Assembly: GCF_900102145.1 (NCBI RefSeq)
Contig: NZ_FNBC01000018.1
Location: forward strand, 1-46,355
DNA from: Thermus arciformis
GTDB taxonomy: Bacteria > Deinococcota > Deinococci > Deinococcales > Thermaceae
Direction of reading: 5' to 3'
DNA: 46,355 nucleotides
Below are positions 9,821 through 15,550 of the stretch, in pieces. The number at the start of each line of letters is the position of its first letter. The stretch's first letter is position 1. Made by a program: the position numbers and the translations under genes. The notes below the pieces were generated by a model that saw only the letters and a program-made list of their open reading frames with translations, was not told the origin of the DNA and ran no database searches.

Positions 9821-10311
9821 AGCGCTTCCTGACCCTTTGGAACCTCTTGGGCTTGGGGGTCTTCCTCCTGGGGAGCCTCGTCTACTGGGAGGCCGGGAAG
9901 GGCCCCGCGGCCCACGCTTTGCCCCTGCCCGCCGAGGAGCAAAAAACCCCCTCCCTCTCCCTGGTCCTCTACCGCCCCAACCCCCCCCAGGGCTTCCTCA
10001 AGGAGACCCTGGCCCTGGAGCTTGGCCCCGGGGAGACCCCGGAGGCCAAGGCCCTGACGGCCTGGGCGGAGGCCCTGAAGGCCCCTAAGCCCAAGGCCCT
10101 CTTCCAGGCGAAGGGGGCCTGGGTGGTGGACCTGCCCCAGGACTTCGCCCAAGGGTTGGACGCGGCCCTCGAGGTCTACCGCCTCTACAGCCTGGTCTAC
10201 ACCCTCCTCTCCACCTTCCCCGAGGCCAAGGAGGTGCGCTTCCTGGTGGAGGGGAGGCCAAGCCCGGGGCTCGCCCACCTGGACCTGAGCCTGCCCTACA
10301 CCCTGCCATGA
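9817..10311 (+). CDS. GerMN-domain protein, membrane-anchored
   Basis: 164 residues. One N-terminal hydrophobic segment (LLGLGVFLLGSLVYW, about residues 10-24) serves as anchor or signal. Residues ~45-155 resemble a GerMN domain: an extracytoplasmic alpha/beta fold with VDLPQDFAQG..., a helical YRLYSLVYTLLSTFP, and EVRFLVEGRP. In sporeformers GerM acts at the envelope; in non-sporulating bacteria these domains often sit beside amidases, as here. It overlaps the amidase and smc by ATGA. The specific role is unknown. Confidence 0.8.
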   Translation: MKRFLTLWNLLGLGVFLLGSLVYWEAGKGPAAHALPLPAEEQKTPSLSLVLYRPNPPQGFLKETLALELGPGETPEAKALTAWAEALKAPKPKALFQAKGAWVVDLPQDFAQGLDAALEVYRLYSLVYTLLSTFPEAKEVRFLVEGRPSPGLAHLDLSLPYTLP

Positions 10312-13663: not shown

Positions 13664-13692
13664 TTGCGTTAAATACCCCCGGAAGGTATGAT
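13664..13692 (+). promoter_or_regulatory. Peroxiredoxin gene promoter
   Basis: TTGCGT (13664-13669), 17-nt spacer, TATGAT (13687-13692). The Shine-Dalgarno GAAAGGAGG follows at ~13715-13723. This is one of the clearest sigma-70-type promoters in the window. It lies just after the mazG stop. Confidence 0.75.
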
Positions 13693-13729
13693 GTTCCCCG
13701 CTGGCCTGGCCAGCGAAAGGAGGTTCTTT

Positions 13730-14386
13730 ATGGAAGAAACCACCGTGCCCACCCTACCCCGCCTGAACGAGCCCGCCCCCGACTTCGTGGCCAAGACCAC
13801 CCTGGGGGACCTCAGGCTTTCCGACCTCAAGGGAAAGTGGGTGGTCCTCTTCAGCCACCCCGCCGACTTCACCCCGGTGTGCTCCACGGAGTTCTTGGCC
13901 TTCGCCGAGAGGCAAAAGGAGTTTGAGGCCCTCGGGGTACAGCTGGTGGGCCTTTCCATTGACTCCATCCACGCCCACCTGGCCTGGGTCAAGGACCTCG
14001 AGGAGATGGCGGGCATCCCCATCACCTTCCCGGTCATCGCCGACTTGGACATGAAGGTGTCCAAGCTCTACGGCATGATCCACCCTGCCGCCAGCGAGAC
14101 CGCCGCGGTGCGGGCGGTCTTCATCATTGACCCGAGCGGCATCCTCCGGGGCATGCTCTACTACCCCCTCACCACGGGCCGCAACATTGACGAGATCCTC
14201 CGCTTCATCCAGGCCCTGCAGTTCACCGACCGCACCGGCCTCAACACCCCCGCCAACTGGCGGCCCGGGGAGCCCGGCATCGTCAAGCCCCCCGCCACCT
14301 TCCCCGAGCTCAAGGCGGACGAGGCCAAGAAGGGCGAGTACACCGAGTACCGCCGCTGGTACCTCCGGCTCAAGCGGGCGGAGTAA
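13730..14386 (+). CDS. 1-Cys (Prx6-type) peroxiredoxin
   Basis: Thiol peroxidase reducing H2O2 and organic peroxides. The ATG at 13730 is chosen because GAAAGGAGG lies just upstream and the promoter -10 overlaps the alternative upstream ATG. The protein is 218 residues with one Cys only, in the peroxidatic motif HPADFTPVCSTE. The long C-terminal domain (NTPANWRPGEPGIVKPPAT...YTEYRRWYLRLK) is typical of the archaeal and thermophilic Prx6-type enzymes. No second resolving Cys is present, so it should use an external reductant. A strong hairpin terminator follows. Confidence 0.93.
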   Translation: MEETTVPTLPRLNEPAPDFVAKTTLGDLRLSDLKGKWVVLFSHPADFTPVCSTEFLAFAERQKEFEALGVQLVGLSIDSIHAHLAWVKDLEEMAGIPITFPVIADLDMKVSKLYGMIHPAASETAAVRAVFIIDPSGILRGMLYYPLTTGRNIDEILRFIQALQFTDRTGLNTPANWRPGEPGIVKPPATFPELKADEAKKGEYTEYRRWYLRLKRAE

Positions 14387-14438: not shown

Positions 14439-14687
14439 TCAGTCAAACAGGTCAAAGAACTCCAGGAAGCCCTTTTTCTTCTTGTAGGGCTTGCCCTCCT
14501 TGCGGTAAAAGCCCTCCAGCTCCTCCTCGTAGCGGCGCTCCACCTCCTTGGCCTCGGCCAGGAGCTTCTCCAGCTCCCCCTTGTCCAGCCACACCCCGCC
14601 GCACTGGGGGCAGACGTCAATCAGGACGCCGCGCCGCTCCACCTCCCGCATGCCCACCCCGCAGTGGGGGCAAAGGAGGAGGGGCAC
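14439..14687 (-). CDS. TFIIB-type zinc-ribbon protein
   Basis: 82 residues. Two CPxC knuckles (CPHCGVGM at 6-13 and CPQCGGVWLDKGEL at 26-39) make a zf-TFIIB/COG3809-like zinc ribbon. An amphipathic charged helix follows, with a basic patch KPYKKKK and a hydrophobic acidic tail FLEFFDLFD. The ATG directly abuts the stop of the membrane metallopeptidase upstream (14688), so the two form an operon under the riboswitch-like leader. Role unknown; it may be a chaperone or adaptor for the peptidase (inference from adjacency only). Confidence 0.8.
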   Translation of the reverse strand: MPLLLCPHCGVGMREVERRGVLIDVCPQCGGVWLDKGELEKLLAEAKEVERRYEEELEGFYRKEGKPYKKKKGFLEFFDLFD

Positions 14688-15374
14688 CTACTCCTCCCTC
14701 CGGCCGAAGAGGCCGAGGAGGCTCGCGTAGTAGAGGATCGTGGCCAAGGAGGAGGCCAAAGCCGCCACGTAGGTGAGGGCCGCCCAGGTGAGCACCCGCC
14801 GGGCGGGGCCCATCTCCTCGCGCCCCAGGAAGCCCATGCGCCTCAGGAACTCCAGGGCCCTCTTGGAAGCGTCAAACTCCACGGGCAGGGTGATGAGCTG
14901 GAAGAGGGCCACGGCCAGGTAGAGGTAAAGGCCGAGCTTGGCGAGGCCCAAGGCCCCGAGAAAGAGGCCCGCGAGGACCAAGATGGGCCCCAGGTTGCTC
15001 CCCAGACTCGCCGCAGGCCAGAGGCTCGCCCGCACCCTGAGCCAGGCGTAGCCCTGGGCGTCCTGCACCGCGTGGCCCACCTCGTGGGCGGCCACGGCCA
15101 AGGCGGCCAGGCTCGGCGAGGCGTAGTTGGGCTCGGAAAGCCGCACGGCCTTGGCCTGGGGGTCATAGTGGTCCGTGAGGGCCCCGGGCACGGGCTCCAC
15201 CCGCACGTGGCTGAGCCCGTGGGCGTCCAGGATGGCCCGGGCCACCTGGGCCCCCGTGAGCCCCCGGCTGTTGGCCACCCGGCTGTAGCGGGCGAAGGTG
15301 GCCTGTAGACCCCCCTGGATGATCAGGCTGGCCACGAACACCAACCCCATGAGCAAGAAAGCGAGCGTGTCCAT
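14688..15374 (-). CDS. Membrane zinc metallopeptidase, YugP family (Zn_peptidase_2)
   Basis: 228 residues. An N-terminal membrane helix ([19 protein letters not shown]), then the protease core with HExxH in [15 protein letters not shown] (about residues 90-104), and two or three further hydrophobic segments. Segments such as [15 protein letters not shown] and [17 protein letters not shown] are typical of the COG2738/YugP family, whose substrates are poorly known. AAGGAGGG lies just before ATG 15374. The 5' leader contains a probable yybP-ykoY riboswitch, which would make expression Mn2+-responsive. The next gene is the zinc-ribbon protein. Confidence 0.9.
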
Positions 15375-15384
15375 GTCTTCCCTC

Positions 15385-15516
15385 CTTGGGAAGTAGCAAA
15401 AGCCTCGAGGCCACCCTTACAGGTGGTCTCGCCATGCGCCCTCAGGCGCCCCAGCCGACCGGGGAAACCTCCCGTACTGACGGCCGGCTGGCCCCTTCCG
15501 GGGCGGCTACTCCCCA
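15385..15516 (-). ncRNA. Probable yybP-ykoY (Mn2+) riboswitch in the metallopeptidase leader
   Basis: On the minus strand the leader starts with GGGGAGTAGC (15515-15506), has a GC stem-loop, GTCAGTACGG, further stems, and GGCGAGACC near 15433-15425. The GGGGAGUAG loop and the GAGACC loop are the two conserved metal-site loops of this riboswitch class (known). Downstream, GCTACTTCCC (15397-15388) can pair with the aptamer's GGGAGTAGC, and it lies right before the Shine-Dalgarno. A short GCCTCGAGGC palindrome followed by TTTT (15411-15398) could be a terminator. I infer control of transcription or translation by Mn2+. Boundaries are approximate. Confidence 0.7.
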
Positions 15517-15521
15517 AGGCC

Positions 15522-15550
15522 TTTATACCAGAACCCCCGAAGGGGCACAA
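15522..15550 (-). promoter_or_regulatory. Promoter of the riboswitch-metallopeptidase operon
   Basis: Minus strand: TTGTGC (15550-15545), 17-nt spacer, TATAAA (15527-15522) with TGG just before it. Transcription would begin about 15515, at the first bases of the aptamer. Confidence 0.65.

Follow-up and report, generated by a model that had tools for sequence, protein, structure and literature searches.

The locus examined here, in a 46,355-nucleotide stretch of Thermus arciformis DNA (contig NZ_FNBC01000018.1, hereafter the window), raises the question of why a leader resembling a manganese riboswitch should stand in front of a gene for a membrane peptidase, and whether it could act there as a switch. 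The leader and the two genes behind it all lie on the minus strand: yugP (14688-15374) encodes a membrane metallopeptidase of 228 aa (PF04298, Zn_peptidase_2, E 1.1e-84, 283.8 bits), and immediately 3' of it is a gene for an 82-aa TFIIB-type zinc-ribbon protein (14439-14687; PF13453, Zn_ribbon_TFIIB, E 8.6e-20), these profile matches bearing out the gene identities proposed in a preliminary description of this DNA. The order of yugP followed by the zinc-ribbon gene recurs in all 24 Thermus loci examined, and in a sister genus (G071). A 1-Cys peroxiredoxin gene (13688-14386, plus strand) is convergent with the yugP operon, and elsewhere in the window a tRNA-SeC called by ARAGORN (10020-10113, minus strand), where Rfam detects no tRNA, is probably a false positive.

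A promoter at 15550-15522, composed of a -35 element TTGTGC (15550-15545) and an extended -10 element TGG-TATAAA (15530-15522), is separated from yugP by a leader of about 140 nt. This promoter is not listed by a stricter consensus scan of the window; its TTG...TATAAAGG columns are kept across 24 aligned Thermus leaders, and the DNA 5' of it shows no conservation in the same alignment. Immediately 3' of the extended -10 (TATAAA, 15527-15522) lies GGGGAGUAGC (15515-15506), and transcription is consequently expected to start at about 15517-15515. The Shine-Dalgarno sequence AAGGAGG (15387-15381) is conserved in Thermus leaders.

Judged by comparison of sequences, the minus-strand yugP leader is an aptamer of the yybP-ykoY (Mn2+) class (15515-15425), which confirms the preliminary observation; conservation throughout the genus, the adenosine of L3, covariation in P3, a sister riboswitch at terC and occurrences in other families all support this assignment. 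The preliminary description had named a sub-threshold RF00080 score among its grounds for refutation, and here the outcome was divided. At the gathering cut-off of 45 bits nothing in the window is found, and the leader scores 21.3 bits in a focused search (E 3.6e-4) and 22.1 bits genome-wide (E 4.3e-4); yet it is the best of three matches in the genome, and in a blind search the leader of the yugP orthologue was the top match in 24 of 27 Thermus genomes. No site in Deinococcota reaches the cut-off, terC leaders included, so the shortfall at yugP is explained by the weakness of the model for this group. The gathering value is a search threshold and not a biological feature, and at that threshold RF00080 misses the Deinococcota members of the class.

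A plain pattern search for the motif pair GGGGAGTAG-N60-90-GSRAGACC, which is independent of covariance models, found exactly two sites in the T. arciformis genome, against none for a reversed-pattern control, and one to three sites per genome across Thermus, almost always at yugP and terC. Given that the control also yields 0 to 3 sites per genome outside T. arciformis, the weight of this result rests on the identity of the sites, not on their number, each Thermus genome having in essence two, at yugP and terC. The motif precedes a TerC-family gene in all 27 Thermus genomes (L209-L235; in T. arciformis at G000:C54:15303-15386, minus strand), and its RF00080 score there is far under the cut-off. 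TerC is a classic target of the Mn riboswitch class, and Thermus therefore does use the class for Mn. The Thermus terC aptamer is without P2 and has an intrinsic terminator behind it (GACCACCGC.../GCGGUGGUC-UUUUCUUU); in Thermus terC leaders the terminators overlap the 3' strand of the aptamer.

The yugP leader contains the four helices P1-P4, with P3 covarying as judged by the fold and by P3.1 pair counts. The 5' strand of L1, together with that of P1.1 (GGGGAGUAG, 15515-15507), is invariant in all leaders, and the 3' strand of L1, preceded by the P1.2 3' strand GGC (GGCGAGACC, 15433-15425, with GCRAGACC at 15432-15425), does not vary among the 24 Thermus leaders whose aptamer is intact. These conserved loops had been correctly recognised, GGGGAGUAGC being placed at the predicted transcript start, but three hairpins (P2, P3 and P4) lie between them rather than the two stems first counted. 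P2 (GCCCC-GGAA-GGGGC, 15504-15491) is present in the minimum free energy fold and P4 (GCGCC-UGAG-GGCGC, 15449-15436) is likewise found by folding, both being conserved. P3 (15490-15452) comprises a 10-bp P3.1 (15490-15481 with 15461-15452), L3 and P3.2. L3 is a 7-nt bulge, UCAGUAC (15480-15474), in which the invariable adenosine A15478 is the counterpart of the Mn-binding A41 of L. lactis and A48 of X. oryzae; the L3 of L. lactis, UCAAUUC, has the same length, and its third base, A41, binds Mn2+ via N7 (PMC6754395). Two Thermus species have UCAGGAC or UCAAGAC at this position.

In the alignment of Thermus yugP leaders the stretches GGGGAGUAGCC and AUGGCGAGACCAC are invariant, and the P3 region with UCAGUAC is also conserved. 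Despite sequence change, P3.1 keeps 9-10 pairs across Thermus, two other Deinococcota yugP leaders (G071 and G109), terC leaders and Firmicutes relatives; a third (G100) scored only 7 pairs, under automatic anchoring. P1.1, the usual switching helix of the class (PMC11087558), is by comparison reduced: only GG (15515-15514) is able to pair with CC (15426-15425), and the helix is thus limited to 2-3 bp. In two Thermus genomes (G018 and G025; leaders L167 and L168) the yugP leader retains GGGGAGUAG and the anti-aptamer described below while P3 and L3 are degenerate, a possible case of riboswitch decay.

It had also been proposed that GCUACUUCCC (15397-15388), which abuts AAGGAGG, pairs with the core of the aptamer, and this pairing is upheld by the fold, by every leader tested and by a permutation comparison. 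Folded to its minimum free energy, the leader adopts an OFF form (z = -4.15), in which P2, P3, P4 and a 3' hairpin are all enclosed by CCUUGGGGAGUAGC paired with the anti-aptamer GCUACUUCCCAAGG (15397-15384, pairing with 15519-15506 over 14 bp, one of them G-U), an element that the Shine-Dalgarno sequence both overlaps and abuts. The same long-range pairing is possible in 27 of 27 yugP leaders tested, and pairing within species was stronger than between-species swaps with only 14 exceptions in 5000 permutations, a statistic that ignores kinship. Matched changes occur just 5' of GGGG (GC with GC, UU with AA, CC with GG), implying that those bases are transcribed. A competing, terminator-like hairpin, CGAG-A-CCACCU/GGGUGG-C-CUCG (15431-15406), takes the 3' strand of the aptamer and is followed by a U tract which, by tract counts, is U4 in the window and U5-6 in most Thermus. 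A consensus terminator scan of the window was negative, and we therefore do not claim the hairpin at 15431-15406 as a clean terminator.

Anti-aptamer and 3' hairpin are each predicted to be incompatible with the aptamer and, as a Mn-bound aptamer would exclude both, the predicted response is ON. For secondary structure without tertiary contacts, the OFF form is favoured over the ON form, the difference being 17 kcal/mol at 37 C but 11 kcal/mol at 70 C; because energies alone favour OFF, a cotranscriptional, kinetic switch is implied. In the mechanism that we propose, the aptamer 5' strand would, without Mn2+, pair with GCUACUUCCC beside the Shine-Dalgarno sequence and the 3' hairpin would occupy the aptamer 3' strand, the two pairings jointly blocking ribosome loading and, in most Thermus, perhaps also terminating transcription. 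With Mn2+, L1 and L3 would dock, both strands would be held in the aptamer, and yugP and the zinc-ribbon gene would be expressed. YugP would then most likely serve Mn2+ stress through proteolysis of membrane proteins, with mismetallated proteins, or importers that leak Mn, such as MgtE, as possible targets.

We consider it probable that the yugP leader is a Mn2+ ON riboswitch which raises YugP and the zinc-ribbon protein, with YugP serving Mn2+ stress. Within this explanation, class membership and gene linkage are shown by comparison, as are the predicted alternative pairings, and we infer the ligand, the direction of switching and the substrate of YugP; Mn2+ binding and Mn2+-driven membrane proteolysis are accordingly offered as predictions. 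Several features count against a Mn2+ ON switch, namely the short P1.1, the energy difference in favour of OFF, the U4 tract, the degeneration in G018 and G025, the sub-threshold RF00080 score, and the lack of the motif at yugP in Meiothermus-like genomes and most other families examined.

A leader that belongs structurally to the class could nevertheless sense a different divalent ion (Ca2+, for instance) or more than one, with YugP answering to that signal. We regard this as unlikely, given that the Mn-specific adenosine is invariant and that the sister riboswitch controls terC, a usual Mn target, although L3 here is UCAGUAC, rather than UCAAUUC or ACAUACU, and for the mgtA member of S. pneumoniae tighter binding of Ca2+ than of Mn2+ has been reported (PMC9495176). 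Less likely again is a conserved structure that no longer switches, or that acts mainly as a heat-sensitive structure at the ribosome binding site (an RNA thermometer), as might be envisaged in a thermophile. The great stability of the OFF fold, the minimal P1.1 and the retention of the anti-aptamer in the two species with decayed P3/L3 would be consistent with such a role, as would a D. radiodurans mutant in which a yugP orthologue rises 2.4-fold alongside heat-shock genes (PMC4507557). However, the unpaired nucleotides of L1 and L3, which are important for metal binding, rank among the most conserved parts of the leader, and distant lineages retain the aptamer with a different platform. Chance resemblance in GC-rich DNA, to which the sub-threshold RF00080 score might point, has a negligible probability and is already refuted by the comparative data, in which the same orthologous position tops the genome-wide list in 24 of 27 genomes, alongside the covariation and the motif-search sites.

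Relative to the L. lactis yoaB type (RF00080), the Thermus yugP leader shares L1 GGGGAGUAG, the 3' GCRAGACC, the four-helix layout, a 10-bp P3.1 with a 7-nt L3 carrying the Mn-binding A, and a predicted ON logic in which the P1/L1 strands are common to the platform. It differs in its P1.1 of 2-3 bp, in that the 5' core of the aptamer itself pairs beside the Shine-Dalgarno sequence, in its target, which is a metallopeptidase and no transporter, and in scoring under the Rfam cut-off. The terC riboswitch of the same genome has the same L1, L3 and GACCACC start of the 3' platform but, unlike the yugP leader, it lacks P2, possesses a clear intrinsic terminator and controls TerC; a three-way junction without P2 has also been described for the S. 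pneumoniae mgtA member (PMC9495176). The class is already known, and its target gene, near-absent P1.1 and genus-wide dual platform make the Thermus yugP case a variant. As far as we have searched, yugP is new to the class as a target, since no link between YugP and a riboswitch was found in a literature search that did not extend to the gene tables of Dambach 2015 and Price 2015; the one paper containing both words uses each of them once.

YugP is widespread, and we know of no substrate or Mn phenotype for it. The protein carries the motifs HEVGH and PVEFDAS, HExxH being invariant, and this motif and the PF04298 match place it in Zn_peptidase_2, with peptidase activity predicted from sequence. 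Its structure model is mostly helical (pLDDT 94); a fold search against the PDB returned nothing with E below 0.001, so that no solved relative was found by sequence or by fold, and YugP is unmatched in NCBIfam. In B. subtilis, YugP is a protease of the inner spore membrane with a mild effect on germination when htrC is also missing (PMC13393411). A separate B. subtilis system, in which YqgP and FtsH destroy MgtE at high Mn2+ and low Mg2+, links Mn2+ excess to membrane proteolysis (PMC7231995), yet the likeness is one of analogy only, given that YqgP, a rhomboid protease, is switched on when Mn2+ binds to its own domain, whereas YugP is an unrelated HExxH peptidase for which we propose control at the RNA level. 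The T. arciformis genome encodes MgtE and no Nramp was found in it; by analogy, YugP might have a role comparable to that of YqgP on MgtE.

Beyond Thermus, the aptamer was present in 3 of 58 yugP leaders taken from other Deinococcota genomes, one in the same family (G071) and two in another (G100 and G109, YugP near 50% identical); the G109 leader has a terminator that takes in the 3' strand of P1.1. The motif is absent from the yugP leaders of the same family's other genera, of Meiothermus-like genomes and of most other families examined, and Mn control is therefore not general for YugP. Outside Deinococcota, RF00080 matches occur in five of 34 genomes with YugP relatives, none of them near yugP, and among 151 genomes from the phylum of an Anaerolineales bacterium there are 12 matches, none at yugP, which, where readable, precede genes for TerC, UPF0016-like proteins and P-type ATPases. 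In a tree of these short sequences, Thermaceae yugP leaders group with Thermaceae terC leaders, and those of G100 and G109 with the leaders of TerC and antiporter genes from the family to which these two belong, which suggests, with modest support, that the aptamer was recruited ahead of yugP at least twice, independently in G100/G109.

Linkage to a riboswitch is strong evidence of gene function, and the presence of a Mn2+ riboswitch before yugP in several lineages leads to the prediction that YugP acts in Mn2+ stress; if true, proteolysis joins a regulon that otherwise consists mainly of transporters. More tentatively, and with a likelihood that we place somewhat short of even, recruitment of the Mn2+ riboswitch at least twice in Deinococcota, placing a membrane metallopeptidase directly under the control of Mn2+, may define Mn2+-induced membrane proteolysis as a branch of Mn homeostasis, in which YugP, in Thermus with its zinc-ribbon partner, would clear Mn-mismetallated transporters or enzymes. 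In a distant member of Deinococcota (G097), we also observe RF00080-like leaders (L041 and L044) before two calcium/cation antiporter-like genes.
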